DNA of 20,859 nt from a virus. This document shows positions 4,471-17,685 of the stretch, one piece after another (within the stretch, counting starts at the first letter, position 1; the number at the start of each line of letters is the position of its first letter). The DNA lies in IMG/VR virus record IMGVR_UViG_3300025769_001043, positions 1 to 20,859 of that record; one strand, 5' to 3'. The translations under genes and the position numbers were made by a program. Below the pieces are notes generated by a model. It was not told the DNA's origin. It saw nothing but the letters and a program-made list of their open reading frames with translations, and did no database searches.

Positions 4471-4524
4471 ATGCCGGAGAGCATAGCCCAGCCGCCCGCA
4501 ATTAACAACCTTTCGTTTGTTAGT

Positions 4525-4809
4525 ATGCCAGCCCATTCAATCCTCGCCACGGCTCTATCCGAGTCCTACACCCTAGCCGAGTTGAAAACCTTTCGCCGCG
4601 CCCTGCTCGAAGCCGCCCTCGCCCCCGATGCACTCACCGGCGAACAGCTCGACGGCGTTTCATTCCAATTCGCGCCGCGCTCGCTGCCCGAGATCAACCA
4701 GGCGCTGGAAAATATCGCCGCCGCCATTTCCAAGCTGGAGGATGCAGCAGACGGCCCCGGCACCGTGCGCTCGCGCTTTTTCAATTTCAACGCCCGGCCG
4801 ATAGAATAG
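4525..4809 (+). CDS. gpW-like head-tail connector (head completion) protein
   Basis: A 94-aa protein in the slot between large terminase and portal where lambda encodes gpW (68 aa). The order of elements matches gpW: a helix with RRALLEAA (24-31), a beta hairpin around QLDGVSFQFAP (41-51), a second helix LPEINQALENIAAAISKLE (54-72), and a basic C-terminus ending in an aromatic/Arg segment. gpW plugs the portal after packaging and is needed for tail joining. I prefer ATG 4525, preceded by an A/T-rich leader like other genes here; an in-frame ATG at 4471 would add 18 residues of non-conserved character. The call rests on position and secondary-structure pattern. Confidence 0.65.
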   Translation: MPAHSILATALSESYTLAELKTFRRALLEAALAPDALTGEQLDGVSFQFAPRSLPEINQALENIAAAISKLEDAADGPGTVRSRFFNFNARPIE

Positions 4810-4815
4810 GCATGG

Positions 4816-5286
4816 ATGGAAATAACAACTTTCGACCTGATTCTAAAAACAGCCGGATGGATATCGGCAGTAGCTGGCGCACTAATTGTACTATGGCGGT
4901 ATTTATTGAATCCGTTGCTGACGGTCATGCGGAGTTTAAGAAAGCACTCCGAGCAGATATCGGCCGCCTTACCGTTGCTGGCCGAGCTGCTCGAAAAGTG
5001 GCCGTCAGTATCGGGGCGGGAGTCCTTTTTTTACTATCTCGCGGATCTGGATAAAACCGTACGCCACAACGATGCGTGCATCCACGCGCTGCTGACGCGC
5101 ATGGGGATCGACGACACCACCCAGCGACCGCCGCCGCGCTCCATCCTGCTAACCGAGCAAGTTGGCGAAAAAATCCATTTAACGCTCGACTGCGCCCACG
5201 TGTTCGCGCTGCCGGATACGCCCCAGTCTCGCGAATACCTGGCCAGCCGCCCGCGCATTTTGTGTACCCAATGCCGCAAAGTCTAG
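4816..5286 (+). CDS. Membrane-anchored protein with C-terminal CxH/CxxC motif, unknown function
   Basis: A 156-aa protein starting 7 bases after the connector gene. Residues about 7-29 (LILKTAGWISAVAGALIVLW) form one strong transmembrane helix followed by basic residues at 39-44, predicting a cytoplasmic C-terminus. Residues 45-62 are an amphipathic, possibly coiled helix. The C-terminal part carries Cys126-x-His128 and Cys150-x-x-Cys153, which could bind one zinc ion. I do not recognise the family. The single membrane span recalls phage holins or anchors, but the soluble zinc-like tail is not typical of a holin, and lambda has no membrane protein between W and B. It is tightly packed in the head operon and so is expressed with the head genes. 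Confidence 0.6.
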   Translation: MEITTFDLILKTAGWISAVAGALIVLWRYLLNPLLTVMRSLRKHSEQISAALPLLAELLEKWPSVSGRESFFYYLADLDKTVRHNDACIHALLTRMGIDDTTQRPPPRSILLTEQVGEKIHLTLDCAHVFALPDTPQSREYLASRPRILCTQCRKV

Positions 5287-5288
5287 CG

Positions 5289-5327
5289 ACTGTACACTGT
5301 ACAGTCACCCTTTGTACAGTGTACAGT
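5289..5327. promoter_or_regulatory. 15-bp perfect inverted repeat / tandem operator-like dyads before the portal gene
   Basis: ACTGTACACTGTACA at 5289-5303 is perfectly repeated in inverted orientation at 5313-5327, with a 9-base loop. The left part is itself a dyad, ACTGTAC-ACT-GTACAGT (5289-5305). The right part is a weaker dyad, TTTGTAC-AGT-GTACAGT (5311-5327). Their centres are 22 bp apart, about two helical turns, as for two protein dimers bound on one DNA face. In RNA the whole forms a strong hairpin without a U tract, just upstream of the likely portal start (GTG 5351). Function unknown: repressor operator, translational hairpin or processing site are all possible. Confidence 0.55.
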
Positions 5328-5350
5328 TGTTTGACGTTGCGCCCATCGGC

Positions 5351-7087
5351 GTGACTGCACAGCAACCATTTCCAACCTTGCCCGCCACCCGGCCCGATCT
5401 CTCCGCGCTCGGCAAGCCACGTCGGGGCATACCGGCCACGGCGATCCCGCGCCCCGGCAAGCCTAATAAAAAGAAGGCAGCAACCGAGCCCGAGTCGGTT
5501 ATTTACCTACCCGATGGCTCCGGCCTATCGATGGAGAATTTCAGCAATTACGCGAATAATGGATTCAGCGGGGCGCAAAATTCTTATAATCGTGGCTACG
5601 TGGTTTTTCCTCAATTGGATACCCGCAAGGAAATCACCAGCTATTCCCGCACCGAGATGTTGCGCCGCTCCCGTTGGCTTTACGATAACGTCGGCTATGC
5701 CAAGCGACTGGTGTGCGGCATTTCCCGCATGATGGGCGCTCTCCACCCGGACCCGATCACCCGCGACACCGAGTGGAAGCAGGAGGCGCTCGCCGCATTC
5801 TGGCGCGTGGCAAAATCGCCGCTGCTATTCGAGCGCTCCGGCAAATTCAACTTCCTCACTTACCAGCGCTTTCTCACCCGGCGCTGGTTGATCGACGGCG
5901 ATATCTGCTCGATCTTTTCCGAAAGCTTCGGCGGCTCCACCATGGTCGCGCCGTTTGAGGCGCACCAGATCAAAGACCCGCGCGGCGGCGACCATTTAAG
6001 CGGTTGGTTCGATGGCGTGCAAGTCGATAAGGGCAACCGCTTAAAAAAGGTCCGCATCATCAACCCCGATTACCCGGATAAATACAAGGATTACCGGGCC
6101 GATGTCGCCCACCTATCCGCGTTTTGGGAGCGGGCCGGCCAACCACGCGGCGTGACACCGTTTCACGCCTGCATCACTCGGATGCTCGATGTGCGCGAAG
6201 TCACCGGCGATATGATGGGCAACATCAAGCGATCCGGCCTGGTCGGTTTCTACCTGCACAGCCCCAACCAAAACAATTTTTTGGGCGACGATGGCCTGGC
6301 CGGCGGAATCCGCGATTACATCGATTCGCACAGCCGCGACGTGGCCAACGCTGCCGAGGATGGCAACGAATTAGTAACCGCAAAAACCAAGCTCCGCATT
6401 GAAGACTTGATGCCTGGCATGGACGGCGCAATACCTGAATTGCAGGACATTGAACCTAAAGTCCTACACGATGCACGCCCGGCAGCCGAGCAGATGAACC
6501 TGCTCAACTGGTTTATTCGCGAGTGCTCGCTCTCATTCGACTACTCGCCCGAAGTCCTCTGGGACCTGGCCAACCTCAACGGCAACACATCCAGGCTGAT
6601 CAAAGAACACTCCGAGCAAACCAGCCGCAACTACCGTTCCGAAATTTTACAACCGTTTTGCCAGCGCTATTGGTTCCACCTGATCGGCAACGAGATTGCC
6701 GCCGGTCGCCTGCGCGAACCCGATCAAGGCAACTGGTGGGATGTGGAATGGATCCACCCCAAGAAAATGACCATCGATCGCGGCAACGAAGGACATCTCA
6801 ATCTTGAAGAGCGCCGCCAGCCCGGTATGCGAACCCTGGCCAGCCACTACGGCGAGCTACAGGAAAATTGGGAGCCGCATATTGACCAATGGCTGCGCGA
6901 AATCGCCTACACCATCGAGCGCGCCGAAAGCATGGAGCAATTTTCGCCCGAGATGGTCGCCGCCGTGCAAGCCATGTTGCTCTCACCGCCTCCAGGGGCC
7001 GCCGTGGCAGCCATGGCACCCGGAGCCGAAGACCTGCCGCCGCAACCCAACCCGCAGCCCGGAATGGGTCAAAGCTTAAATTTATAA
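5351..7087 (+). CDS. Portal protein, lambda gpB family
   Basis: Forms the dodecameric ring at one capsid vertex through which DNA enters and to which the tail attaches. About 578 aa from GTG 5351, compared with 533 aa for lambda gpB. Features of the family: an N-terminal basic, Pro-rich arm; RSRWLYDNVGYAKRLVCGI (the 'N-x-x-A-R' helix that opens the portal domain); GDICSIFSE, a core strand motif; a helix with RVTGDMMGN-type character (DVREVTGDMMGNIKRSGL); and EQMNLLNWFIRECSLSFDY followed by NTSRLIKEH, the stem/clip region typical of lambda portals. The C-terminus is Ala/Pro-rich. The frame is open upstream to TTG 5312, inside the inverted repeat; TTG 5327 or GTG 5351 are more plausible starts. 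No Shine-Dalgarno is clear. Confidence 0.93.
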   Translation: MTAQQPFPTLPATRPDLSALGKPRRGIPATAIPRPGKPNKKKAATEPESVIYLPDGSGLSMENFSNYANNGFSGAQNSYNRGYVVFPQLDTRKEITSYSRTEMLRRSRWLYDNVGYAKRLVCGISRMMGALHPDPITRDTEWKQEALAAFWRVAKSPLLFERSGKFNFLTYQRFLTRRWLIDGDICSIFSESFGGSTMVAPFEAHQIKDPRGGDHLSGWFDGVQVDKGNRLKKVRIINPDYPDKYKDYRADVAHLSAFWERAGQPRGVTPFHACITRMLDVREVTGDMMGNIKRSGLVGFYLHSPNQNNFLGDDGLAGGIRDYIDSHSRDVANAAEDGNELVTAKTKLRIEDLMPGMDGAIPELQDIEPKVLHDARPAAEQMNLLNWFIRECSLSFDYSPEVLWDLANLNGNTSRLIKEHSEQTSRNYRSEILQPFCQRYWFHLIGNEIAAGRLREPDQGNWWDVEWIHPKKMTIDRGNEGHLNLEERRQPGMRTLASHYGELQENWEPHIDQWLREIAYTIERAESMEQFSPEMVAAVQAMLLSPPPGAAVAAMAPGAEDLPPQPNPQPGMGQSLNL

Positions 7088-7147
7088 TAAAAACAATAAT
7101 AACCATAAGTGGCCATGTGGCCACACCCACTAAAAACACTATAAACC

Positions 7148-8023
7148 ATGGCCGCTGCAACACCTTATCCGCGCATCATTAGCCAAGTTTTTACATCGCC
7201 CTGGCAGATTTTGCCCGAGCATCACGCCGCGATTTCCGCCGCGCTCCTGGCGCACGTGGATGGCAAGGGGCAGAATATACCCGATTTTTCCGAGAATAAT
7301 TTCGCCACCCGGCCGATGAATCGCGACCGCTTCCTTAACCCGGTGGAGATATCCGACGACGGCAGTATAGCCGTAATGACCATCGAAGGCACGCTGGGCA
7401 AAAAGCTTTCCATGCTCGAAACCTTTTGCGGCGGGGTCGATCTCCAGCACATCGATAAAGACATCGAAGAGCTCGCCCGCGACGATCGCATCCAAACCGT
7501 CATCTTTAATATAGATTCGCCGGGCGGCATGGCTCGCCCATCCAGCGACACCGCGCAGCGCATCCTCGAACTAAGCAAAGCTAAACGCACCATTGCCTAT
7601 ACTGACGGCACCATGGCCAGCGCCGGATACAAGCTGGCTTCCGCGTGCGGTAAAATCTACGCCAGCAATTCGGCGGATGTCGGTTGTGTCGGTACCTATA
7701 TCGCTCTTTACGACCAGAGCGAGGCGCTGAAGAAACGCGGCATCGAGCTGAAGCTATTTCGCGACGGTAAATATAAAGCCCTGGGCTATCCCGGCAAAGC
7801 GATGACCGAAGAGGAGAGCAACTACCTAACCAGCGAAGTCTCCGGCCTGAGTGCCAAGTTTAAAGACTTCGTACGCAAGCAACGCCCCGGAATCGATGAG
7901 AGCGCCCTCGAAGGCCAATGCTTATCCGGCAAGCGGGCGCAGGATGCCGGTTTAATCGATGGTGTTTACCAGGATCTGGGCTCGCTGGTGGCAGCGGAGA
8001 TCAAGCGCCCCTTGACATTTTAA
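7148..8023 (+). CDS. Head maturation protease, S49 (SppA/gpC-like) family
   Basis: A Ser-Lys peptidase of the ClpP/crotonase-like fold that cleaves scaffold and/or portal during capsid maturation, the role of lambda gpC. Over its 291 aa: VMTIEGTLG strand (76-84), DSPGG oxyanion loop (123-127), nucleophile Ser158 in GTMASAGYKLAS, and general base Lys210 in RDGKYKALGYPG. The Ser-Lys spacing (52) equals that of Bacillus SppA (Ser147/Lys199), which supports the assignment of both residues. The C-terminal GKRAQDAGLID motif is also typical of the family. Unlike lambda C, which contains the nested scaffold Nu3, this protein ends soon after the protease domain and the scaffold is a separate downstream gene. 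The start is ATG 7148 after an A/T-rich leader. Confidence 0.93.
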   Translation: MAAATPYPRIISQVFTSPWQILPEHHAAISAALLAHVDGKGQNIPDFSENNFATRPMNRDRFLNPVEISDDGSIAVMTIEGTLGKKLSMLETFCGGVDLQHIDKDIEELARDDRIQTVIFNIDSPGGMARPSSDTAQRILELSKAKRTIAYTDGTMASAGYKLASACGKIYASNSADVGCVGTYIALYDQSEALKKRGIELKLFRDGKYKALGYPGKAMTEEESNYLTSEVSGLSAKFKDFVRKQRPGIDESALEGQCLSGKRAQDAGLIDGVYQDLGSLVAAEIKRPLTF

Positions 8024-8063
8024 ACCCCTTCGAACGTTCACAGTAATTTTCATAAAAAAAGAC

Positions 8064-8552
8064 ATGTCCGAGAATATCGACCAACCAATAGCAGGCGAAA
8101 GCACCGAGGAGCCCAAAAAGGGCGGTATTCTCGGCATCTTCGAGAGCGCGAAAGCAAAAGACGCCCAGAAAGTCGTCGCCCTTACCGAGCAAGTCACCGA
8201 GCTTGACGCGGAGAACACCGCCCTACATGAAGCGGTAGCCAAGCTGCAAAGCAGTGAAGCCAAACTCCAGAGCGAACTCGAAGGGCTGCAAAGCGATTAC
8301 GATGCCAAGCTGGCCGAGATCGAAGAGCTGGAAGGCGCGGTAAAATCCGCCACCGCCTCCGCCGGCCAACAAGCCGCGCAGATCGCCGCTCAAAGTCACG
8401 TGGCCCCCGAGGATCTGCCCGCCGCAGCATCCAGCGAAACCGAAAACGCCCCGGCTAACGAAGCCGAACTCGAAGAAGCCCTGGCCGGATGCGAATCGCA
8501 CGCCGAGCGCTCCGAATTGGTTAAGCAGTATCGCAACCGCTCGAATAACTAA
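8064..8552 (+). CDS. Coiled-coil scaffolding-like protein
   Basis: A 162-aa, very acidic protein between head protease and capsid gene, exactly where a scaffold is expected. Residues 35-93 form a long heptad-patterned coiled coil (VVALTEQVTELDAENTALHE and onward). Residues 94-135 are Ala/Ser/Pro/Glu-rich and flexible. The C-terminus ends in a short basic helix (LVKQYRNRS), like the capsid-binding tails of P22-type and Nu3-type scaffolds. It probably nucleates capsid assembly and is then removed by the upstream S49 protease. No sequence similarity to Nu3 is evident by eye; the call rests on position and architecture. The leader before ATG 8064 is A-rich with no clear Shine-Dalgarno. Confidence 0.75.
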   Translation: MSENIDQPIAGESTEEPKKGGILGIFESAKAKDAQKVVALTEQVTELDAENTALHEAVAKLQSSEAKLQSELEGLQSDYDAKLAEIEELEGAVKSATASAGQQAAQIAAQSHVAPEDLPAAASSETENAPANEAELEEALAGCESHAERSELVKQYRNRSNN

Positions 8553-8584
8553 GTAACAATTTTTTAACGAAAGAATAAAATAAT

Positions 8585-9739
8585 ATGGCAAATACCATCG
8601 ACTCGCAATTGCAGCTGACGGAGATCTTGGATAGCGCTCTAACAGCGTTTAAAAGATCAGTCGTTAGCCTGAATGCATTCTCAACCGTTTATCGCGATGT
8701 CTCCCTCAAGGGTGACGATACCGTGGACGTACCTTATTACCCTTTGGCCACCGATGCTTCCGCTTCGCGTGATGCTGCCGGATCCTATAAGGCGCTCGTA
8801 ACCGATACCGATACGCAGACCAAAACGATCACGATCAACAAAAACAAGGTCCAAGGGCTTTCGTTCACCGGTCGCGAAGTAAGCCGCCAGCCGGTTTTCG
8901 ACCCGGTTAAGCACGGCCAGATCAAAGGCGAAAAACTGGGATACGATATCGTGGCCGATGTTTTGAGCGTTGTCACGAAAGCAAACTTTTCCGGCAACAC
9001 GATCGCAGCGACTACAGCCGCTAACTTCGACGAGGAAGACGTTGCCGATTTGGCGCAGGATTGCGAAGAGGCTGAGTGGCCCAAGACTCCACGCAGCTTG
9101 ATTCTCAACCCGGCGTTTCACTATAATTTGGTCAAACAACCCGCGCTGATTGATCTTTCGCAGAGCGGATCGAACGTTTTGAATACTGGTATGCTTCCCA
9201 ACATTATGGGCTTCGATACCTATTGCAGCAACGGCGTCCCAACCAACAACGGCACCGCCACCGCTTGCACCTTCGCTAATGCGAGTGATGTATTTACCGA
9301 CGTGGCCCACGGTCTAACTAATAACGATATTGTTCAGCTCGCCGGTACAGCCGTTCCAACTGGTTTCTCTACATCAACCGATTACTACGTAATCTCCGCC
9401 ACCGACGACACCTTCCAGCTTTCGGCTACCGAAGGCGGCGCAGCAGTGGATGCGAGCGACGATGGCACGGATGTTACCTACCAGCTCTTCGAGCGCCTGG
9501 CAGGTTTCGCAGTAGGACCGAGCGCAGTATTATGTGCGTTCGCTCCGGTCCCACCAACCGCAGGCGTTCGCCAGTTGCTGGTTGATTACCAGCAGGTTAC
9601 CGACAGCGACACAGGCGCAACTCTTGAGTACAAGCGCATCGCGTACCCTGATACTGACGAAGAAGCTCAGTTCATCGAGGCGCACTACGGTTATGTGACT
9701 GGCGAGGCAGCAGCCCTCAAGCGAATCATTACATCCTAA
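8585..9739 (+). CDS. Major capsid protein (HK97-fold expected) with inserted beta-rich domain
   Basis: Main shell subunit, 384 aa, placed after scaffold and before the small head-tail genes. The N-terminal arm (1-60) and a long middle helix region (GQIKGEKLGYDIVADVLSVV, 111-130) are followed by DLAQDCEEAEWPKTPRSLIL (155-174), the usual 'helix then PxxRxLil' capsid pattern. The C-terminal part (303-384) has RLAGFAVGPSAV, VDYQQVTDSDTGATLEYK and HYGYVTGEAAALKRI, all typical of capsid P/A-domain ends. Residues about 224-300 interrupt this: FTDVAHGLTNNDIVQLAGTA ... YYVISATDDTFQLSAT, a module I know as a stand-alone repeat in many phage tail proteins (often matched to an FCCH-like beta barrel). No separate gpD-like decoration gene is found in the head cluster. 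The A/T-rich leader ending AAATAAT before ATG suits high expression. Confidence 0.88.
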   Translation: MANTIDSQLQLTEILDSALTAFKRSVVSLNAFSTVYRDVSLKGDDTVDVPYYPLATDASASRDAAGSYKALVTDTDTQTKTITINKNKVQGLSFTGREVSRQPVFDPVKHGQIKGEKLGYDIVADVLSVVTKANFSGNTIAATTAANFDEEDVADLAQDCEEAEWPKTPRSLILNPAFHYNLVKQPALIDLSQSGSNVLNTGMLPNIMGFDTYCSNGVPTNNGTATACTFANASDVFTDVAHGLTNNDIVQLAGTAVPTGFSTSTDYYVISATDDTFQLSATEGGAAVDASDDGTDVTYQLFERLAGFAVGPSAVLCAFAPVPPTAGVRQLLVDYQQVTDSDTGATLEYKRIAYPDTDEEAQFIEAHYGYVTGEAAALKRIITS

Positions 9740-9751
9740 TAATATACCTAT

Positions 9752-10066
9752 ATGAAAATCGGCATTATTGTAGCGGAATTACCAGGGGATGACCCGGCTG
9801 GCCTGGAGGTCATTGGGCAACCCGCACCCTATCGGGCGGCGCTGGATACCTACGGAGAGTTAATCAACGATCCCGAGGTAGCCGCGAAATATACCGGTAT
9901 TTCACTCTGGACCCGGCACGGCGTAGCGAAAAAGCGCAAACTCAAAGGCGCGGCATCAGTAGCAGCCGCCGCCGAGCCCGCTCCGGCCCCGGAGAAAAAG
10001 GAAAGGGAAAAGACTTCAAAAAAAGCGGCACCCAAAAAACGGGCCGCACCAAAAAACAACGACTAA
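9752..10066 (+). CDS. Small head protein with Lys/Ala/Pro-rich tail, unknown
   Basis: A 104-aa protein directly after the capsid gene, in the lambda FI region. Residues 1-65 look folded (MKIGIIVAELPGDDPAGLEV, then a Tyr-rich helix and LWTRHGVAKKRKLKG). Residues 66-104 are a low-complexity Ala, Pro, Glu and Lys tail that is strongly basic at its end (KKAAPKKRAAPKN) and could bind DNA or terminase. No family is recognised. It is the last gene before two terminators, so it closes the head transcription unit. It may be an FI-like packaging accessory by position, but this is only inference. Confidence 0.65.
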   Translation: MKIGIIVAELPGDDPAGLEVIGQPAPYRAALDTYGELINDPEVAAKYTGISLWTRHGVAKKRKLKGAASVAAAAEPAPAPEKKEREKTSKKAAPKKRAAPKNND

Positions 10067-10082
10067 CAGCAGCCGCAATTTA

Positions 10083-10125
10083 GGGGCCATCTGCTAAAAC
10101 AACACGGCCCCGAATTTTTTATATT
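10083..10125 (+). terminator. Intrinsic terminator 1 after the head operon
   Basis: GGGGCC (10083-10088) pairs with GGCCCC (10106-10111) across a 17-base loop, followed by GAATTTTTTATATTTT. The 6-bp all-GC stem plus the T-rich tract fits a rho-independent terminator, although the loop is long. Confidence 0.55.
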
Positions 10126-10133
10126 TTATTGAG

Positions 10134-10150
10134 TGAGTGGATACCACTCA
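10134..10150. promoter_or_regulatory. Perfect 7-bp hairpin/dyad in the head-tail gap
   Basis: TGAGTGG, a 3-base ATA centre and CCACTCA form a perfect 17-base dyad between the two terminators. It has no T tract after it. It could be a small operator or RNA hairpin; no partner is known. Confidence 0.3.
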
Positions 10151-10213
10151 GTGAGGTCAAAGAAAAGTGAGAGGCGGTTTTTGTTTCCCATCAATCGCAA
10201 CAAGCAAGAGAAG

Positions 10214-10248
10214 CCCAGCCGGTTAGTCATTTCCGGCTGGGTTTTTTT
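10214..10248 (+). terminator. Strong intrinsic terminator 2 between head and tail genes
   Basis: CCCAGCCGG (10214-10222) pairs perfectly with CCGGCTGGG (10233-10241) across a 10-base loop, followed at once by seven T residues. Two upstream A residues can extend the stem. This is a textbook rho-independent terminator. Since tail genes continue on the same strand, they must have their own promoter or depend on antitermination or read-through. Confidence 0.9.
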
Positions 10249-10253
10249 AGCAG

Positions 10254-10281
10254 TTAGCTATTAGCGGTTAGCTTTTAGACA
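10254..10281. repeat. Heptamer repeat block (TTAGCNN), copy 1
   Basis: Tandem 7-bp units TTAGCTA, TTAGCGG, TTAGCTT and a partial TTAGAC, directly after terminator 2 and before the first tail-side gene. The same family recurs in inverted orientation at 10868-10893 and in direct orientation at 14210-14237. Confidence 0.75.
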
Positions 10282-10294
10282 TTACAAATTAGGC

Positions 10295-10639
10295 ATGCCT
10301 AGACGACATATAAATTCTGGACGGAATCGGGCTTTTAAACGGATGCTTGCCGATTTTCCCGGTACCATCACGTTTACCGACGACAACAGTACAGCGCTAC
10401 CGTGCGCCCTGGTGATTGGTATCGAGGAACGGGAGACGGTCGAGGGCGGCTTTAGCCGCGTGCGCTCCGCTACTGTATACATAGCCAAAGAAACCCTGGC
10501 CACGCTGCCCAACCTGGAAACCCGCCCGGCGGTTACGCTGGTGCAAGAGGACGGCGAAACCGAAACCATGCGGGTGTACGAAAACCACGCACAAAGCGAA
10601 AGCCATTGGTTGCTGCGCTGCGGCCAGATTAATCAGTAA
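10295..10639 (+). CDS. Head-tail joining / tail attachment-like protein
   Basis: A 114-aa protein, close in size to lambda gpFII (117 aa) and in the same map position, first gene after the head unit. The N-terminus is basic (PRRHINSGRNRAFKRM). Residues 20-114 are predicted mostly beta: ITFTDDNSTALPCALVIGIE, SATVYIAKETLATLP, and a C-terminal strand ending in HWLLRCGQI. This 'short helix then beta sandwich' layout suits head-tail stoppers. It follows strong terminators, and I see no convincing promoter in the 45 bases before ATG 10295. The role is inferred from place and size. Confidence 0.5.
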   Translation: MPRRHINSGRNRAFKRMLADFPGTITFTDDNSTALPCALVIGIEERETVEGGFSRVRSATVYIAKETLATLPNLETRPAVTLVQEDGETETMRVYENHAQSESHWLLRCGQINQ

Positions 10640-10648
10640 AAGAAAACC

Positions 10649-10870
10649 ATGATTCATACGATCCAGTTTACAGCCGCCGAGTTGGAGGAAGTCGCCAGCG
10701 GGCTCCGGGTTATGCGTGCCACCCCTGCGGTAAAAAAGATGGTCGCGGCTATTGAGTTGGAGCTAGGTAACCGTGATTACGAGCGATTGCCGGCCGATCA
10801 TCCGGCGCGAATCGATCCCGATTACCCGCCGAATAGCTACATCAGCGAAGCCTACAGCGAAACCACCTAA
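10649..10870 (+). CDS. Small protein of unknown function in head-tail region
   Basis: A 73-aa protein starting 10 bases after the previous gene. Residues 8-40 form two predicted helices (FTAAELEEVASGLRVMRATP and a following basic helix). The end is Pro/Asp/Tyr-rich and likely extended. No family is recognised. The spacing implies co-transcription with the tail attachment-like gene. Its TAA stop is the first three bases of a heptamer repeat block, which suggests that the repeats invaded right up to the coding end. Confidence 0.6.
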   Translation: MIHTIQFTAAELEEVASGLRVMRATPAVKKMVAAIELELGNRDYERLPADHPARIDPDYPPNSYISEAYSETT

Positions 10871-10893
10871 CCGCTAACCGCTAAAAGCTAACA
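10868..10893. repeat. Heptamer repeat block (TTAGCNN), copy 2, inverted
   Basis: On the + strand the units read TAACCGC, TAACCGC, TAAAAGC, TAACA, which is the reverse complement of the TTAGCGG/TTAGCTT family at 10254. It fills the whole 23-base gap and ends immediately before ATG 10894. Confidence 0.75.
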
Positions 10894-11397
10894 ATGAAAA
10901 ACGAGATCGAGAACGGGGTAAAGAATTTTATCGAGGCGGCGTTTCGCGATCGCGACGGGCTCGATCCCGAGGATGATTTGCCGGTAGCGGTGCATGCTGC
11001 TAGCGGGGATGAGACGATTAATGAGACGCTGCCGTATATCGTCGCGCAAGTGACCGAAAGTCCGCACCTGGTTGGCGGCATCGGCCACGCCCGGCTGATG
11101 GTCGTGGCCAGCAGCCCGCACAAAACCGGCTACGAAACCGACCACCAGAGTAATGTGCGTTTCCTGCGTGCGGTATTTTCCGCCGCCGTGCCGCCCAAGC
11201 TGCCGGTTAATGCCGCGCATTTGAGCGAGGAAGTATGGACAGCCAGCGGTGACGAGATATCGGTTCAGGGGTTCCATGTTAACGGCTACATCGGAACAAC
11301 AGGCGATCCGCAGCAGGACGGCATCGAGCTAACATTGGGGGTATATAAGGGCGCGAGCGCCTCGCTGGTATCGAGCGGCGATATTTACACGGGGTAA
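10894..11397 (+). CDS. Tail terminator / minor tail protein-like (gpU position)
   Basis: A 167-aa protein after the small head-tail genes and before the probable tube gene, the place of tail terminators such as lambda gpU (131 aa). The N-terminal helix (IENGVKNFIEAAFRDRDG) is followed by PVAVHAASGDETINETLPYI, a strand LMVVASSP, a helix NVRFLRAVFSAAVP, and a C-terminal strand ISVQGFHVNGYIG and IELTLGVYKG. That alpha-beta order (helix, strand, strand, helix, strands) is compatible with the tail-terminator fold. No diagnostic motif is visible, and the product could be another tail-completion protein. Confidence 0.5.
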   Translation: MKNEIENGVKNFIEAAFRDRDGLDPEDDLPVAVHAASGDETINETLPYIVAQVTESPHLVGGIGHARLMVVASSPHKTGYETDHQSNVRFLRAVFSAAVPPKLPVNAAHLSEEVWTASGDEISVQGFHVNGYIGTTGDPQQDGIELTLGVYKGASASLVSSGDIYTG

Positions 11398-11423
11398 AAA
11401 ACCTTTGACGCGTTGCAAATTGC

Positions 11424-12122
11424 ATGGCTTTTGGCGTACAGGATTTATTTTCTCTATCGGCCCCAACGGTGGGCTATGTAAACGAGTCTACCGAGACTAA
11501 GACGATTGAGGCGGCTACGCTGCGCGATCAGGACGGTGTGACCCAGTGTGTGGCGGCGAAACCGCTGATTACCATCGAGGTGACTCACAAAGGGATGGGC
11601 GGTGATGCCCTGGGAACCCTGGCGGCCGGCACGCTCTCCAGCACGGGCACGCTACAGATAACCTCGCAGAAACGCACTGAAACCAATTCAGAATATCCCG
11701 AATTTGATGTAAGCGCCAAAGGTTACGATGACCTGGGATCGATTGCAGACCCAACAGGACCGAGCGCCCCGACACCAGACGCTAGCTCCGATCCGGCCTG
11801 TCCGCTACTCGGCCTTACATCGGTTGGCTACTCCGGCTGTGAATCGTTTGAGCTGGAGGAGGTTATTGATGAGGCCCCGGTTGGCCTGGATGCGGATGGA
11901 TCGTTTGATCATCAATACTTTTTTGATCCGACCTTTAACTGGACAGTTAAGGGGATCGGCTCGATGCCAGCCACGCTGACACTTGGCAGCGATGGCGGTT
12001 TGCCGGATACAGTCAGCGAATTTTCCACCGGGGTGACGATGTTACTCAGTCTCAAGGAAGAGCAAAAACTGGAAAACCCTAGCTGGGAAGCCAGCGGGCA
12101 ACACTGGCCGAGTGCAGCGTAA
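11424..12122 (+). CDS. Probable major tail tube protein
   Basis: A 232-aa protein in the position of lambda gpV. Sequence is Thr/Ser/Gly-rich with alternating beta strands, for example KPLITIEVTHKGMGGDALG, GTLQITSQKRTETNSEYP and FDVSAKGYDDLGS; tube proteins show this kind of long beta barrel with a 'K/E-rich strand then V-x-A/G-x-G' region. A middle Pro/Asp-rich loop (residues 110-125) is followed by an acidic ELEEVIDEAP segment and a strand FNWTVKGIGSMPATLTLG. It is a single-copy gene with no C-terminal Ig-like extension. The role rests on order (before the frameshifted chaperone) rather than a motif. Confidence 0.55.
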   Translation: MAFGVQDLFSLSAPTVGYVNESTETKTIEAATLRDQDGVTQCVAAKPLITIEVTHKGMGGDALGTLAAGTLSSTGTLQITSQKRTETNSEYPEFDVSAKGYDDLGSIADPTGPSAPTPDASSDPACPLLGLTSVGYSGCESFELEEVIDEAPVGLDADGSFDHQYFFDPTFNWTVKGIGSMPATLTLGSDGGLPDTVSEFSTGVTMLLSLKEEQKLENPSWEASGQHWPSAA

Positions 12123-12150
12123 TTAGTTAGTTCAGCGAATAGCCGTAAAA

Positions 12151-12723
12151 ATGGATGTGGGGAAAGTTTACCCGGTTGGCGCGACAGGTTCGCCGTTGCG
12201 CTCGAAATCCCTTATCTTAATAACGCTACTGCTCGAAGCCGGTTACCCACTCGCGACCACACAAACCAATTTTGAAGATTCGGTGGACCTGGCAACCGGC
12301 GAACGCAAATGGGTTTTTTTGTTCGATGGCTCGCACGCCCGCAAATGGGGCGAACTGGTTGATTTACTGCCGAAGCAAGCTGCTGATTATTTTCTCAACC
12401 GCACCCGCACAGCGCCGCCCTGCGAGGCACTCGCCCATCGGGCGGCGCTGTGTAACGCCTATGGCGAAACTTGCCACCAGCTGGCCAGCTCGCCGCCGCA
12501 TATCATACTGGAAACGGCCCTGGTAGACGTTGGCGGGCTCGACCATGCCGCCGCGCAGCGCATAGCGGACCAGCATTTGATTGTTTGTGATGCGGTAAAA
12601 AACGCTCCGAAACACGTGATTGCTCACCGGGGCCGGGCTCGCTACTGGATACCGGCGGAGTTGAGCGAGACGGAGCGCGAAACTGCAATCGATCGGCTTG
12701 CGCGGGAGTATCGCCCGGTTTAG
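12151..12723 (+). CDS. Hypothetical tail-region protein
   Basis: A 190-aa protein between the probable tube gene and the frameshifted chaperone. I do not recognise it. It starts with a short hydrophobic stretch (SLILITLLLEAGYPLA, 19-34) that looks buried rather than membrane-spanning. The middle has a Trp-rich segment (KWVFLFDGSHARKWGELVDL), and four cysteines lie at 94-133 and beyond without a clear metal-site spacing. The C-terminus is charged and helical. Spacing to the next gene's ATG is 10 bases, so the two are probably co-translated. There is no equivalent in the lambda map. Confidence 0.6.
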   Translation: MDVGKVYPVGATGSPLRSKSLILITLLLEAGYPLATTQTNFEDSVDLATGERKWVFLFDGSHARKWGELVDLLPKQAADYFLNRTRTAPPCEALAHRAALCNAYGETCHQLASSPPHIILETALVDVGGLDHAAAQRIADQHLIVCDAVKNAPKHVIAHRGRARYWIPAELSETERETAIDRLAREYRPV

Positions 12724-12733
12724 AATCCCAGGA

Positions 12734-13183
12734 ATGACGCGTGAAAAAGCCAGCCGAGCCGCCTTTTACGAGGGGGAGTTTACCCTGGAAGATCTTACGT
12801 TCCGGCCGTTTTCGGCGGCGACGAAGTTGCACCTGGAATCGTTGGGGATCGGTGAGGAGTTGCCGGATGATGACGACGATGAGGGTTGGGCGGATATGAT
12901 CGTGGCGATGGCTTATTGCCAGTGGGCTCCGTTGGAGGAAATTAATGATCTATGTTTCGAGATCGACGAGGCTGAGAATGAGGCGGCGGCTGCGATCCAT
13001 CGGAAAAAATTTCGGCGCGGGTTGCTGACGTTTAAAAGCCGTCTTACCGGAGATATGATGATCGAGCTGGCCAAACGCATGACGGCTATTATCAGCAATC
13101 AGCAGCGGATCAATTACGACCTGGCCGAGAAACCGGCCGAGGATATCCCAGGCGACGAAAGCCCGCCGCCGGGAAACGAGTAA
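12734..13183 (+). CDS. Tail assembly chaperone, G-like (zero-frame product)
   Basis: A 149-aa acidic protein upstream of the tape measure, equivalent in position and expression to lambda gpG (140 aa). These chaperones coat the tape measure while the tube polymerises. The N-terminal part contains LEDLTFRPFSAATKLHLESL, then an Asp-rich segment (DDDDDE), helices to residue 130, and a Pro/Glu/Asp-rich end. I chose ATG 12734, preceded by CCAGGA, a partial Shine-Dalgarno; the frame is open upstream but overlaps the previous gene. The last five codons contain a -1 slippery heptamer, so a fraction of ribosomes should produce a longer G-T fusion of about 232 aa. Confidence 0.75.
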   Translation: MTREKASRAAFYEGEFTLEDLTFRPFSAATKLHLESLGIGEELPDDDDDEGWADMIVAMAYCQWAPLEEINDLCFEIDEAENEAAAAIHRKKFRRGLLTFKSRLTGDMMIELAKRMTAIISNQQRINYDLAEKPAEDIPGDESPPPGNE

Positions 13184-13220
13184 CGCCGGGCTGGGTGTTT
13201 TCGTTAATCGCCAGCCTGGC
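13171..13220 (+). promoter_or_regulatory. Programmed -1 ribosomal frameshift signal (G GGA AAC + stem-loop)
   Basis: The heptamer GGGAAAC (13171-13177) is phased as G GGA AAC in the G-like frame, matching X XXY YYZ; lambda's own G/T site is G GGA AAG. The zero-frame stop follows two codons later (TAA 13181-13183). Seven bases downstream of the heptamer begins a 10-bp stem: 13185-13194 (GCCGGGCTGG) pairs with 13211-13220 (CCAGCCTGGC), with one G-U wobble and a 16-base loop. Spacer and stem are in the range of known stimulators. Confidence 0.85.
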
Positions 13221-13431
13221 CAGCACTTACGGCTGGAGCGAACGCTATTGTTTGTATGATCTGCCGTTTTCGCGGGCGATCGGTTATCTGCATTGCATCG
13301 AGCTGGGCAGTTTAACCCACTGGACGGTTGACCCGTTTGCGAGTGCTTCTAATTCGGCTGATGGTTCCGTTTCTGGTGCGGTAATTTCCGAGGAACGTTT
13401 GCGGGAGATTTTCGCGGAGGATGAGTTTTAG
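13177..13431 (+). CDS. T-like extension of the tail assembly chaperone (-1 frame)
   Basis: Reading frame entered by -1 frameshifting after AAC 13175-13177. From 13177 it is open to TAG 13429-13431 without a stop, adding 84 residues to the 148 read in the zero frame. The extension (for example SLIASLASTYGWSERYCLYD, then LPFSRAIGYLHCIELG) is helical and aromatic, like the T domains that bind tail tube subunits and are made only as a G-T fusion. A GTG at 13195 could be annotated as a free start for 78 aa, but it has no ribosome-binding site and sits inside the loop of the frameshift stem. I regard independent translation as unlikely. Confidence 0.8.
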   Translation, partial: RVTPGWVFSLIASLASTYGWSERYCLYDLPFSRAIGYLHCIELGSLTHWTVDPFASASNSADGSVSGAVISEERLREIFAEDEF

Positions 13432-13444
13432 AGCCTTCGGCTCT
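13430..13444 (+). other. Short perfect hairpin at the end of the chaperone gene
   Basis: AGAGCC, a TTC loop and GGCTCT form a 6-bp hairpin overlapping the TAG stop; a T run (TTTTTT) follows ten bases later at 13453-13458. It could act as a weak terminator or RNA-stabilising hairpin, but the T tract is too far away for a canonical intrinsic terminator. Confidence 0.3.
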
Positions 13445-13446
13445 GT

Positions 13447-13530
13447 GCTTCGTTTTTTAGTTCTTCGTGCTTCGTTAACATGCCCGGCAACGAAGAACGA
13501 AGAACCGAGAACCAGGAACGAAGAGAGAGC
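13447..13530. repeat. Heptamer repeat pair forming a long inverted repeat (TTCTTCG / AACGAAG)
   Basis: Seven-bp units GCTTCGT, TTTTTAG, TTCTTCG, TGCTTCG (13447-13474) face units AACGAAG, AACGAAG, AACCGAG, AACCAGG, AACGAAG (13489-13523). Sixteen bases at 13461-13476 pair with 13489-13504 with one mismatch over a 12-base loop. The block fills the gap between the chaperone extension and ATG 13532. The frame of the next gene is open through it, but a 7-bp period and the biased composition argue that it is not translated. Confidence 0.75.
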
Positions 13531-13531
13531 G

Positions 13532-14206
13532 ATGTCCGACGATTTGCAAATAGAGTTTGATACCCGGCGCTTTAACCATGCGCTTTCTGTTTGGTTTGCG
13601 AAATCGAAAAAGACCAACCAGGAAATACTGGAGCAGCAGGCCAAGTTGTTTGTGAAAGAGGTGGTGCAAATGACCCCGCCGCACAAGCCAGGAAAAAACA
13701 CCAACGCCAGCGGCAACCACTCAACGAAGCTCGCCCAAAAAGCCGGTGAAGGATCGGTAGAAAGCGATTTGAACCGGTTGTTTTTTCCGGTCAAGAAAAG
13801 CGAGGCCCAGTACAGCAATCTAATCTCGATCCATAATCAGCACAGGAACCCCCGGGGCCGGGTAAAGAAAGGCATCGGCAAGAAACACAAGGTTTGGAAG
13901 ACCGATTTTACCAGGTATTTGAAATCCCAAAAGGATCAGGTTGGCCGCCTGGCCGCTGGCTGGAACGAAGCCGCCCGCAAATTCGGCTGGAATCCCCCCG
14001 TCTGGATATCCCGCCACAACAGCCCCGGCTCCGCCAAGGTCTCCATCAGTGACGACTCGCTAAAAGTCGAAATGACCAATGCAGTCAGTTACGCCAGCGG
14101 CCAGAAAGGCTTGGAATCGCGCATGAGGCGGGCACTAAAAGCCAAGGAGCGCGATCTAATCAAGCAGATCAAGCATCGGATGGGCGAGGATAGTCCGTTT
14201 CGGTAG
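13532..14206 (+). CDS. Basic tail-region protein, possibly tail completion (Z / gp10-like)
   Basis: A 224-aa, strongly basic protein. The N-terminal part fits the layout of HK97 gp10-like and lambda Z tail-completion proteins: an early helix, then EILEQQAKLFVKEVVQMTPP (31-50), compare their 'A---v---v---tPv-tG' pattern. The middle is Lys/Asn/Gly-rich (HKPGKNTNASGNHS, RGRVKKGIGKKHKVWKT). The C-terminal half has a Trp-rich helix (RLAAGWNEAARKFGW) and ends in a Lys/Arg helix. I chose ATG 13532 over the ATG at 13421, whose first 37 codons run through the heptamer repeats and overlap the previous gene. In lambda such a gene lies before the tube gene, so this position is unusual, and the function is uncertain. 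Confidence 0.55.
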   Translation: MSDDLQIEFDTRRFNHALSVWFAKSKKTNQEILEQQAKLFVKEVVQMTPPHKPGKNTNASGNHSTKLAQKAGEGSVESDLNRLFFPVKKSEAQYSNLISIHNQHRNPRGRVKKGIGKKHKVWKTDFTRYLKSQKDQVGRLAAGWNEAARKFGWNPPVWISRHNSPGSAKVSISDDSLKVEMTNAVSYASGQKGLESRMRRALKAKERDLIKQIKHRMGEDSPFR

Positions 14207-14209
14207 TTG

Positions 14210-14237
14210 TTAGCGGTTAGCGGTTAGCTGTTAGCGG
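14210..14237. repeat. Heptamer repeat block (TTAGCNN), copy 3
   Basis: Four tandem units TTAGCGG, TTAGCGG, TTAGCTG, TTAGCGG begin three bases after the stop of the upstream gene. This is the cleanest block of the family and has the same orientation as the 10254 copy. The remainder of the gap to 14351 has no gene: it holds a TATAAT hexamer at 14274-14279 without a matching -35, and three imperfect 10-bp units at 14285-14314 (CCTCTGATTA, CCTCTGAATA, CCTATAAGTT). Confidence 0.8.
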
Positions 14238-14351
14238 TTTTCGTGATGGCGTATCCGCGTTATGTATAGAATTTATAATGAGTGCCTCTGATTACCTCTG
14301 AATACCTATAAGTTGTCTATAGTGTCGATGGTGTATGCTCGGGCAGCTTGA

Positions 14352-14423
14352 GAAAGATTTTGGAAGGATCAGGTGACGCCGCGCGTTTGGCTTGCACAGA
14401 TGCGACCATAATCGCGCTATATC
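14352..14423 (+). repeat. 72-bp direct repeat R1 upstream of the PP-loop gene
   Basis: Begins GAAAGATTTTGGAAGGATC and ends ATCGCGCTATATC. It is identical to 15303-15374 except at one base (A at 14405, C at 15356). The repeat starts are 951 bp apart and enclose one gene. No terminal inverted repeats and no transposase are present. Both copies can be read as an open frame containing KILEGSGDAARLACTD. Confidence 0.95.
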
Positions 14424-14455
14424 GCAAAAGGTGACTCAGGAACACCGAACGAACG

Positions 14456-15277
14456 ATGATGAATACACAAAAAAAAGATAAAGAGGTGGTCCTTGAGTCC
14501 ACCGTCTTGTTAGGCTCGTCGGTTTCGCCGTCTGGCCGTGTTGTGAGTCACTTCTCTTGTGGTGCTGCATCGGCAGTGGCGACAAAGATCGCTATGGAAA
14601 CGTATGGGACAGTCGAAATCGTGTATTGCGACACTGGAAGCGAGCATGAAGATAATAAAAGGTTCATAAAGGATTGTGAATCATGGTTCGGGCAAAGCGT
14701 GAAAGTCCTCAAGAGCAAGAAATTCGATAATATATATGAGGTGTTCGAGGCTCGAAGATTCCTCGTATCTCATCAGGGAGCACCCTGCACAGGTGAACTG
14801 AAAAAGAAACCCGGAGATGAAATCTGGCAACTGGGCGATACCGAAATATTCGGCTATACGGCAGACGAAAGCCACCGTCTTGAACGATGGCGACGCGACA
14901 ATCAGGAAAGAATAATCGAATGTCCTCTGATAGACCGATGCATCACTAAAGACGATTGCTTCGGTATGCTGGATCGAGTCGGCATCGAACTGCCTGAAAT
15001 GTATAAACTGGGATTCCGAAATAATAACTGTATCGGTTGCGTGAAAGCACGGGATTCAATCGACTACTGGAAACGGGTTAGAAAGCACTTCCCCGAACAA
15101 TTCGACCGCACAGCGAAGCTGGAGCGGGAACTAAAAATAACAATCAACCGAGTAACCAAGGACGGAGAACGAAATCCAATTTATTTGGATGAGATCGAGG
15201 ACGGCGACCCTAAAGGGAAAGATCCGAATATCCAATGCGGATTGTTCTGCATGGCCGAAGCCGATCAGTTTTCCTAG
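14456..15277 (+). CDS. PP-loop PAPS-reductase-like protein (phage type)
   Basis: A 273-aa cytosolic protein of the adenine nucleotide alpha-hydrolase (PP-loop) superfamily, to which PAPS reductases, DndC and tRNA thiolases belong. The PP-loop is SHFSCGAASAVATK (31-44) with the S-x-G-x-x-S signature; VEIVYCDTGSEHEDN (53-67) is the following strand-helix. GAPCTGELKKKP (109-120) and NNCIGCVKARDSIDYW (190-205) are the two conserved segments; Cys111, Cys192, Cys195 and possibly Cys261/Cys265 could hold an iron-sulfur cluster or zinc. The substrate is unknown; nucleic-acid modification or anti-defence are the usual guesses for phage members. ATG 14456 is immediately followed by ATG 14459. By eye it is more A/T-rich, with more ATA and AAA codons, than its neighbours. 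It lies between two 72-bp direct repeats and interrupts the tail operon, so it looks like an acquired cassette. Confidence 0.85.
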   Translation: MMNTQKKDKEVVLESTVLLGSSVSPSGRVVSHFSCGAASAVATKIAMETYGTVEIVYCDTGSEHEDNKRFIKDCESWFGQSVKVLKSKKFDNIYEVFEARRFLVSHQGAPCTGELKKKPGDEIWQLGDTEIFGYTADESHRLERWRRDNQERIIECPLIDRCITKDDCFGMLDRVGIELPEMYKLGFRNNNCIGCVKARDSIDYWKRVRKHFPEQFDRTAKLERELKITINRVTKDGERNPIYLDEIEDGDPKGKDPNIQCGLFCMAEADQFS

Positions 15278-15282
15278 CCTAA

Positions 15283-15302
15283 CAGAGACTGTCAGAAGTG
15301 TG
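15283..15302 (+). repeat. 20-bp direct repeat S1, left of R2
   Basis: CAGAGACTGTCAGAAGTGTG directly abuts the left end of R2. The same 20 bases, with A changed to T once, abut the right end of R2 at 15374-15393, so R2 sits between two copies of S. R1 has no S copy. Confidence 0.85.
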
Positions 15303-15374
15303 GAAAGATTTTGGAAGGATCAGGTGACGCCGCGCGTTTGGCTTGCACAGATGCGCCCATAATCGCGCTATATC
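15303..15374 (+). repeat. 72-bp direct repeat R2 downstream of the PP-loop gene
   Basis: Second copy of the 72-bp repeat (71/72 identical to 14352-14423), 25 bases after the stop of the PP-loop gene. It is in the same reading frame as that gene: after the TAG stop the frame stays open from 15278 to TAA 15407-15409, giving 43 codons that include DCQKCGKILEGSG. Confidence 0.95.
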
Positions 15375-15393
15375 AGAGACTGTCAGTAGTGTG
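15374..15393 (+). repeat. 20-bp direct repeat S2, right of R2
   Basis: CAGAGACTGTCAGTAGTGTG, 19 of 20 bases identical to S1 at 15283-15302; its first base is shared with the last base of R2. The S1-R2-S2 layout suggests a local duplication or target-site event at the right edge of the cassette. Confidence 0.85.
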
Positions 15394-15418
15394 CAATAGA
15401 GTGCATTAAGGCGCATGG

Positions 15419-15922
15419 GTGGGTTCCACGCCATTTGGTGAAATGATAGTAGCAACCAATGGGGCCGTAATCGTGATGATTGACCCTGCCGAGGTGCCGG
15501 AGAAAACTCGAACAGTGATTAAAAACACTATTAATCTTAATGAAGATCGCCCGGCGGTAATGGCGGTATTTGAGCCGTTGACCCGCCCTGGCGCACTGGT
15601 TGATTTTCCCGATGGTATTTCGTTTAAAACCGTAGTCTCCGAATGCAAGCGATGCAAAGGGCACCCGTTAAACAGGATCCTTTGCAGGGAGTGTTTTGGC
15701 GCGGGTAAAAATAAAGAATTAAAGCCAAAGGCGGTGAAGATGTTTGAAAACCGTTACTTCGCCAGCGAACATCTAAAACCTATATTGGCGTTGGCTGATC
15801 TGCAACGTTACAAATACCAGGGCGAGCAGCGCGATTCGCCATTGGCGTTTCGATTTAAAGCTACGGGGCGTGGATTAATCATGCCTTGCCGGGATGAGAC
15901 TTCGACACGCGTGAAGGCTTAA
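15419..15922 (+). CDS. DnaJ-type zinc-motif protein before the tape measure
   Basis: Up to 167 aa from GTG 15419; ATG 15443 (159 aa) is the more likely start because the first residues have no character and the region just upstream is repeat sequence. The core has CKRCKGHP (Cys76, Cys79) and CRECFGAGK (Cys89, Cys92), two CxxCxGxG-like units as in the DnaJ zinc domain, 9 residues apart, so one zinc site is likely. The N-terminal half is beta-rich (GAVIVMIDP, PAVMAVFEPL), and the C-terminus is charged. Its TAA overlaps the tape-measure ATG by one base, implying coupled translation. Such a protein could help fold or load the tape measure, but that is inference from position. Confidence 0.6.
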   Translation: MGSTPFGEMIVATNGAVIVMIDPAEVPEKTRTVIKNTINLNEDRPAVMAVFEPLTRPGALVDFPDGISFKTVVSECKRCKGHPLNRILCRECFGAGKNKELKPKAVKMFENRYFASEHLKPILALADLQRYKYQGEQRDSPLAFRFKATGRGLIMPCRDETSTRVKA

Positions 15923-17685
15923 TGGCCGCCATCACTGCCCAGCTGAAGCTGGAGATTAAACAATTTAAATCTGCGATTAAAACCGTTAAGACGGCTACCA
16001 CGGGCATGAGTCGCAACGCGGCCCGCTCGGGGAAAAGCCTGGCTAAAGGGTTGTTTGGCGGATTGGCTTCGGCGGCACGGCGGGCGGTTTCGGGTGCTAC
16101 GACGGCACTGCGTAAGCTCGGCTCCGGGTTGGGTTTGGCGATCGGGTTTCAGTTAGCCAACAGTCTCGGTGGTGCCGTGAAAAATGCCTTTAGTGGGGTG
16201 CTGGAGGCGGGTATGGAGAAGGAAAACCTAACGATTGCGTTCGATGCCTTATCTGCTGACGGGAAAGGCGGCGAGCGCATTTTTCGCTCGCTCCAGGAAG
16301 ATTCGTTGAAAACGGGTGCCTCGATTGCGTCGATGGCCGGTAACGTCCGTAAATTTATGGCTCAATCTATGGATGAAACCCAGGCGCTTAAATTAAACAA
16401 GGCTTTGCTGGATATTGGCGGCGCAACCGGGTTAACGAACGCGGAGATTTCCCTGCTGGGTAATGCGTTGGGCCAGGTTAAAGGTAAAGGCGTAGCGATG
16501 ATGGAGGAACTGCGCGGGCAGATTGCGGAGAAGGGCGTACCGATCTTTGAGGCGTTGCGCCAATCGATGGAGTTTGATACCACACAGGATTTGTTTAAGG
16601 CGGTTCAGAAGGGCAAGGTTTCGGCGGAGGATGTGATTAGCGTTTTTCGCGATATGAAAGGGCCGTTTGAGAAATTCGCCGGCGGGGCGCAGATGGTTGG
16701 GAGCACGCTCTCGGGGATGTTCGCCCGGTTGAAAAACGAGATGCTCGAATTCAAGCGGATCATTGGTACGGAGTTGATCCCGGTTTTAAAGCCCCACATC
16801 CAGGCAGCGCTCGATCGAATGAAGGCTTTACGGGAGACGACTCGAGATATTGTACATTTGATCAAGGACGGCTTTGCTGATCTCGGTAAGGCAGGGATGC
16901 TGGACCTGTTGCGCGATGGGCTCACCCTGGCTTTTCAATATGCGCTAAATCAGTTAGTCAAGGGGCTTTTCGGAGTGGCTTCGGCGTTGGGCACTTACAT
17001 CGGTGAGGCATTTAAGAACAGCCTGACGATCTTCCAGATACTCACCCGAGCCGATTTCTGGAAGGGTATGAAAGATGGCTTGGAATGGGCAGCGCGGGGC
17101 TTTGGCAACGTGATGTATGAGGTGCTGGCTAACTTGATGGAATCGCTTTCTGGTTTGCGGGTGATCGGTAAGGACTTCGCCGAGGCGGGTGCCAATATTC
17201 GGCAGAATAAGCGAGACAGTTTAAGCACGCAGGCGGACCAGGAAAAATCGATTCGCGACTTGCTGGTGAACCGGATCGGCGAGACGTCGCGCAATGTCGT
17301 CGATTCGTTCAAGGATGGCGTCGCCAATGCGCCAGAGGTGTTCGAAAACCTGGAGGAATATCTGAAAGACTTAGAACAGCGGTTCGCGAATATCAAAAGA
17401 ACCGAGCGCGAGCGGTTGACCCCCGCCCCTGCGGTAAAAAATGCGCCCGGTGCGGGTAAGCCGGGGGATTCGCCGGAGGTTGCGACCGTTTCGCCGCCGG
17501 AAAAGCTGGCTGCGGCGGGGATCGTGGCCTCGAGCATGGCGCGGATCGGCGGCGGCGGCCGGGTGGCTGGGTTGGACACTCAAACCAAGATCGCCCAAAA
17601 CCAGCTGGATACCCAAAAGAATATTTTAAAGCTGATCGATGCGAACGCCCGGAAAACCTACCCCGGCGGCGCTGTATTGGTGTGA
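15922..17685 (+). CDS. Tail tape measure protein
   Basis: Sets tail length and is ejected ahead of the DNA. The 587 aa begin with a basic, helical Ala/Ser/Gly-rich arm (1-100, LAKGLFGGLASAARRAVSG). Residues about 102-250 match the tape-measure N-terminal domain: LTIAFDALSADGKGGERIF, a helix with MAGNVRKFMAQSMDE, then NALGQVKGKGVAMMEELRGQ, EKGVPIFEALRQSM and GKVSAEDVISVFRDM. A long helical region with hydrophobic segments (about 325-400) follows, then a Pro/Ala linker and a C-terminal end with RIGGGGRVAG and QKNILKLIDANA. By the usual 0.15 nm per residue a tail of roughly 90 nm is expected, shorter than lambda (853-aa gpH). No zinc-peptidase or lysozyme domain is visible. Confidence 0.95.
   Translation: MAAITAQLKLEIKQFKSAIKTVKTATTGMSRNAARSGKSLAKGLFGGLASAARRAVSGATTALRKLGSGLGLAIGFQLANSLGGAVKNAFSGVLEAGMEKENLTIAFDALSADGKGGERIFRSLQEDSLKTGASIASMAGNVRKFMAQSMDETQALKLNKALLDIGGATGLTNAEISLLGNALGQVKGKGVAMMEELRGQIAEKGVPIFEALRQSMEFDTTQDLFKAVQKGKVSAEDVISVFRDMKGPFEKFAGGAQMVGSTLSGMFARLKNEMLEFKRIIGTELIPVLKPHIQAALDRMKALRETTRDIVHLIKDGFADLGKAGMLDLLRDGLTLAFQYALNQLVKGLFGVASALGTYIGEAFKNSLTIFQILTRADFWKGMKDGLEWAARGFGNVMYEVLANLMESLSGLRVIGKDFAEAGANIRQNKRDSLSTQADQEKSIRDLLVNRIGETSRNVVDSFKDGVANAPEVFENLEEYLKDLEQRFANIKRTERERLTPAPAVKNAPGAGKPGDSPEVATVSPPEKLAAAGIVASSMARIGGGGRVAGLDTQTKIAQNQLDTQKNILKLIDANARKTYPGGAVLV

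Follow-up and report, generated by a model that had tools for sequence, protein, structure and literature searches.

The virus contig analyzed here very probably carries an accessory gene at an exchange hotspot in its tail cluster: a block that contains a single PP-loop gene, and whose ends resemble DNA of a distantly related phage (L005), appears to have replaced a segment holding a gene with a DGQHR motif. Genes of this kind, inserted between genes that are neighbors in relatives, are known as morons. In this instance, a single-gene exchange has been caught in the act, as two phages are alike but for one gene and the junctions can be placed at the level of the base. Distant relatives supply the ends of the block, and a damaged neighboring gene shows the direction of the change.

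The whole stretch of DNA that was analyzed, termed “the window,” comprises a single virus record from IMG/VR, 20,859 bases in length; coordinates given without a locus name are window positions. Its genes, according to profile matches, include those for the terminase large subunit, the portal, the major capsid protein, and the tape measure. All contigs in this study are metagenomic and probably partial.

A repeat-flanked PP-loop gene in the tail cluster

The features of the region are given below. Comparisons are to a 99% identical sister contig (locus L010), to two distant relatives (L004 and L005), and to a locus that encodes a homolog of the PP-loop protein (L006).

13421–14206, + strand: intact gene of 261 aa in the tail region, preceding the cassette and retaining its native 3' end; it shares 41% identity with the L005 gene that ends in R
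14336–14376, + strand: foreign remnant, comprising the last 13 codons and stop of an L005-like tail gene (ending in LGQLEKDFGRIR), joined to native spacer
14352–14423, + strand: R1, from a direct-repeat search; R is present as a single copy in L004 and L005
14423–14511, + strand: upstream leader plus initial codons of the PP-loop gene; 73% identical to the 5' part of another L006 gene (16149–16237)
14456–15277, + strand: PP-loop gene (PAPS-reductase-like, phrog_424), 273 aa; assigned from Pfam, phrog, and a structure model
15280–15305, + strand: S1, an imperfect copy of the spacer located after R in L005
15303–15374, + strand: R2, one base different from R1 and from L005
15371–15396, + strand: S2; the order R2-S2 equals the order R-S in L005
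15414–15416, + strand: right-hand outer join, where L005-like DNA meets the native backbone at CAT, a 3-bp microhomology
15419–15922, + strand: gene 3' of the cassette, 5'-truncated, 167 aa; the sister version has 190 aa (L010 9932–10504)

The original prediction for this region held that 72-bp direct repeats surround one gene, and these repeats are real: R1 and R2 are equal at 71 of 72 bases, have the same orientation, are spaced 951 bp apart, and enclose the PP-loop gene. The 20-bp repeats said to lie beside R2 were also found. S1 and S2, one on either side of R2, are 88% identical over 26 nt, and 19 of 20 positions match in their core. The rest of the window contains no comparable direct-repeat pair, the closest contenders spanning at most 46 nt (at 80% identity). 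The prediction that transposases and terminal inverted repeats are absent was also correct: the ORF list includes no transposase ORF and no recombinase in the interval, and a repeat search of the window detected no inverted repeats bracketing the gene.

The PP-loop gene had been described as more A/T-rich than its neighbors, and a comparison of GC content and codon usage corroborates this. Its GC fraction (0.470) is the lowest among the 26 window genes, the others having values of about 0.49–0.62, and its codon-usage z score (-7.3) is likewise the lowest, i.e., the most deviant. The gene thus displays one of the marks of a phage moron, a base composition that differs from that of the phage. 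A scan for promoters and terminators around the gene gave results near chance.

A sister contig has a different gene at the same site

The sister contig, IMGVR_UViG_3300007344_000447 (locus L010; whole record L018), aligns to window positions 2–14338 over 14,337 bp at 99.1% identity and to positions 15414–17552 over 2,139 bp at 99.5%, both without gaps. The sole structural difference across this shared 16.5 kb is a break in the sister alignment at 14339–15413. At the break, the sister has no R, and the PP-loop gene is absent from its whole record. Its gene at this position (L010 9088–9936; phrog_5931) encodes a 278-aa protein that has a DGQHR motif, such that a segment of ~985 bp in the sister is swapped for one of ~1075 bp in the window. 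The notion of a foreign, exchangeable single-gene cassette is thus borne out, as a 99% identical contig has another gene in this position.

The stop of the sister’s DGQHR gene abuts the start of the following gene directly. In the window, 23 N-terminal codons have been lost from this following gene at the right join; the sister and L005 show partial conservation of these codons. Because of that loss, the window arrangement is most likely the derived state, with the sister type being ancestral.

We also observed that the window and L018, though separate records, begin at the same base. This common start may reflect either a physical terminus of the phage DNA or an assembly break that occurred in both.

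Distant relatives and the origin of R

L004 and L005 are 99.6% identical to one another and have ~65–75% nucleotide identity to the window where alignable. Each contains exactly one R, and the PP-loop gene is absent from the whole record of both; they were also the only IMG/VR matches to an exact 25-bp R query. The original prediction had anticipated such empty sites, and here they are: the search for the repeat yielded one-copy phages without the gene.

In L005, a tail-region gene (11020–11682) terminates inside R: the repeat starts within the last codons of this gene, which ends in LGQLEKDFGRIR and a stop, and continues into the spacer S. From this comparison, we read R as a duplicated 3' end of a tail gene plus spacer, and not as a dedicated mobility repeat or self-standing element. 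R was also considered as an RNA element. This idea is unsupported, because the stability of its RNA fold is not greater than that of shuffled sequences (z = -0.7) and an Rfam search returned no matches.

A DGQHR gene is located shortly after S in L004 and L005 (L005 11847–12695). It is 96.5–96.7% identical to that of the sister over 849 ungapped bp, while the alignable flanks are only 65–75% identical. Given this identity of 97% against much lower values outside the gene, the sequences argue that the DGQHR gene has also moved between the two lineages, nearly gene-precisely, in a second exchange at one site. The PP-loop gene was said to split a module that is normally contiguous; this proved incorrect, as the sister, L004, and L005 already have another accessory gene there. 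Neither is the upstream gene a recognizable chaperone: profile searches found no family match for this tail-region gene (13421–14206). A second mark of a phage moron, absence from the same place in close relatives, is evident from L018, L004, and L005, none of which has the PP-loop gene. No support was found for a partnership between the PP-loop and DGQHR proteins, as both occurred together in none of the phage records among the matches listed (for the PP-loop protein, the best 60 of 83).

Anatomy and junctions of the inserted block

From left to right, the region runs from native spacer through the L005 tail-gene end with R1, the PP-loop gene, S1, R2, and S2 to the native next gene. Positions 14336–14423 (88 bp) are 100% identical to L005 11642–11729, and positions 15303–15421 are 97.5% identical to L005 11658–11778. 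The ends of the block therefore match phages of the L004/L005 type; the PP-loop middle is found in neither. The left outer join is TGC (14336–14338), a 3-bp microhomology between native spacer and L005-like DNA. As judged from the alignments, this junction and its counterpart on the right are both non-homologous, joined through 3 bp of microhomology.

A proposed route for the exchange and its alternatives

We favor a gene swap at the tail-cluster hotspot. The ancestral phage would have been of the sister type, with the DGQHR gene at the site. In a donor, the PP-loop gene would have been inserted between R and S with duplication of both, giving R1-gene-S1-R2-S2. This step could have occurred through single-crossover integration of an R'-gene-S' circle or, alternatively, through an unequal exchange that joined R-gene-S with R-S. 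The finished block would then have entered the window phage by microhomology-mediated illegitimate recombination; this final transfer needed no R, because the sister has none. We infer the donor, as no phage with an R-PP-loop-S arrangement in an L005 backbone was found. Recombination between R1 and R2 could possibly delete 951 bp, and L004 and L005 may be either pre-insertion sites or products of such an excision. The swap supports the view that spacers and gene ends in phage structural clusters are docking places for accessory genes.

Could R instead be the device that mobilizes the gene? On this account, R serves as a recognition site or homology arm in a dedicated mobile cassette, and the gene enters and leaves by homologous recombination between R copies. 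The order R1-gene-S1-R2-S2 would be expected if a circle had integrated at R-S by a single crossover, phages with one R and without the gene exist, and the layout is like that of phage LRRHood (see below). However, R is made up of the 3'-terminal codons of a relative’s ordinary tail gene and the spacer behind it, it matches only L004 and L005 in IMG/VR by the exact 25-bp query, and the interval lacks a recombinase. Moreover, the sister has no R and the outer joins are non-homologous, sharing 3 bp, which argues that the last transfer did not use R. These observations speak against the proposed role of R as a dedicated mobility repeat as well as the proposed entry of the gene through R-R homologous recombination, and we judge this account to be improbable.

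An assembly artifact, in which an L005-like piece and a third contig were misjoined to a sister-type backbone, was also weighed. One sample could hold phages of both the L005 and the window type, and this single contig contains two junctions and a truncated next gene. Yet the 3 bp common to each join are far under any assembler overlap, the 72-bp repeat by itself could not produce both outer joins, and the inserted ORF is intact, with its closest homologs in other phages. A chimera is therefore very improbable. A transposon, group I/II intron, or homing element can be practically dismissed: HNH endonuclease genes do occur near some phage PP-loop genes, but the interval, having neither a transposase ORF nor bracketing inverted repeats, does not classify as an insertion sequence, Rfam gave no intron match, and the product of the PP-loop gene is not an endonuclease.

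The PP-loop protein

The PP-loop protein scored 34.4 bits against the Pfam profile PAPS_reduct (PF01507; cut-off 22.5), placing it in this superfamily, and it matched phrog_424 with an E-value of 3e-52. With 20.5 bits, it did not reach the cut-off of 154 for the CysH-type equivalog (phosphoadenylyl-sulfate reductase, NCBIfam). Residues 34–226 matched the PADLOC profile of SspD, from the SspABCD system of DNA phosphorothioation (E = 3.5e-18). The likeness to SspD is one of profile, and the context in the window is that of phage structural genes; no SspB or SspC partner was recognized there, with two proteins scanned against PADLOC on a partial contig. The closest solved protein is PptA (PDB 21fy chain C), with an E-value of 1.5e-58 for the sequence alone and 2.3e-98 as a profile. 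PptA and the phrog_424 phage proteins belong to the same protein family as the window protein; we found no relevant literature on PptA in a phage context.

A structure model built with 72 homologs had a pLDDT of 90, compared with 47 for one built with four sequences. In fold, the model was closest to PAPS/APS reductases (for 7rge, Z = 12.8 and an rmsd of 4.0 across 173 residues). Next, at Z = 9–10, came GMP synthetases along with three [4Fe-4S] sulfur transferases, NcsA, TtuA, and LarE. Cysteines 111, 192, 195, 261, and 265 are invariant in the 72 sequences. The protein probably performs sulfur or nucleotide chemistry, with DNA, tRNA, or a nucleotide as its target, and it may plausibly serve to modify nucleic acid or nucleotide with sulfur. 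The window protein and its L006 homolog have 87% amino-acid identity and 74% nucleotide identity (dN 0.09, dS saturated), a comparison that indicates strong purifying selection.

The N-terminus of the protein is probably a graft, because homology to other PP-loop proteins begins only at about residue 23–28, model confidence is low before that point, and the 5' end of the gene resembles that of the different L006 gene listed above. By eye, this L006 gene is methyltransferase-like.

Distribution, flanking repeats, and host

Relatives of the PP-loop protein numbered 442 in IMG/VR and were also present in isolates of several host phyla. The nameable neighbors of the phage homologs were mostly replication and HNH genes. 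A genome scan for PP-loop relatives gave three loci, and one for major-capsid relatives gave none. Among Verrucomicrobiota genomes, 1 of 388 had a close PP-loop homolog.

We surveyed 68 PP-loop ORFs from distinct loci for flanking repeats that scored at least 20 and lay no more than 130 bp from both gene ends. Four of these ORFs passed, the window’s included, vs. none of 593 non-PP-loop ORFs from these loci; with the window left out, the counts were 3 of 67 and 0 of 593 (p = 0.001, with thresholds that were set after seeing the data). Unrelated phages in which direct repeats of locally derived sequence lie close beside the PP-loop gene are as follows.

L084 5001–5717: repeat of 51 bp
L089 5001–5723: repeat of 27 bp
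L035 5001–5759: repeat of 21 bp
L056 1366–2142: repeat of 33 bp (3 mismatches)

These repeats differ in sequence from each other and from the 72-bp repeat of the window. In L084 and L035, the repeat includes the 3' end of the upstream gene, i.e., a duplicated gene end. The flanking repeats of L058, L037, L082, and perhaps L089 are more reminiscent of shared translation-start regions than of scars left by insertion; that of L056 resembles a repeated hairpin. It could be imagined that the PP-loop genes of phages travel singly, as bare cassettes, and duplicate 20–70 bp of host gene boundary with each move; because several of the repeats look like translation-start regions or a hairpin, we consider this generalization unlikely. 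If the recurrence of repeats beside PP-loop genes holds in a larger set, a route of moron entry into phage genomes would become directly testable.

There are weak signs that the host belongs to the Verrucomicrobiota: the capsid protein of the window matches that of phage P8625, the terminase has a 38% match in a Verrucomicrobiota genome, and the PP-loop protein has a 73% match in a Verrucomicrobiaceae MAG. In P8625 and several of the surveyed loci, the PP-loop homolog lies outside a tail cluster, unlike the window gene, and has replication, recombination, or HNH genes nearby. In the Verrucomicrobiaceae MAG L029, a PP-loop gene is located near an ORF that is Zot-like by eye (5854–6867 and 7471–8700), which suggests that filamentous phages also carry the gene.

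Known parallels

The window insertion adds to an already described kind of single-gene trading and is resolved in unusual detail. In the mycobacteriophage LRRHood (subcluster C1), ~1.35 kb of extra DNA lies between 29-bp direct repeats in the region of genes 43–46; its relatives have one copy of the repeat, placed at the far 3' terminus of a gene, and the authors prefer acquisition from another phage (PMC3029335). The two cases are alike in that an insert lies between short direct repeats, relatives without it have a single copy, and that copy coincides with the 3' terminus of an ordinary gene, here the L005 tail-region gene. In contrast to LRRHood, the window has a 72-bp repeat, a single inserted gene, and microhomologous outer junctions, and its R was brought with the donor DNA and is not native to the recipient.

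In the Burkholderia siphoviruses phiE125, phi644-2, and PI-E264-3, a PAPS-reductase moron is located between two conserved genes at a hotspot; a figure legend of the source lists the morons at this hotspot as a DNA methylase, a PAPS reductase, and a chromosome-partitioning factor (PMC2920897). Morons alternate at that site, just as the PP-loop and DGQHR-motif genes do in our phages, though the two sites are likened by content, not by position. The phages are different, and flanking repeats are not described in the excerpted part of the source (PMC2920897).

Other repeated sequences

Three phages have the palindrome-like sequence ACTGTACACTGTACA close to the start of a gene: in the window it precedes the portal gene (5275–5341), in L005 it precedes the tail-region gene (11014–11028), and in L006 it lies within the start of the methyltransferase-like gene (16276–16290). 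Its chance expectation in the window is about 0, and it is possibly a shared spacer or regulatory element. Tandem GTTAGCGGTTAGC-like repeats were found in three spacers of the structural region of the window (10227–10292, 10858–10901, and 14197–14248). The exact 13-mer is absent from L004 and L005, and the repeats at 14197–14248 are also present in the sister.
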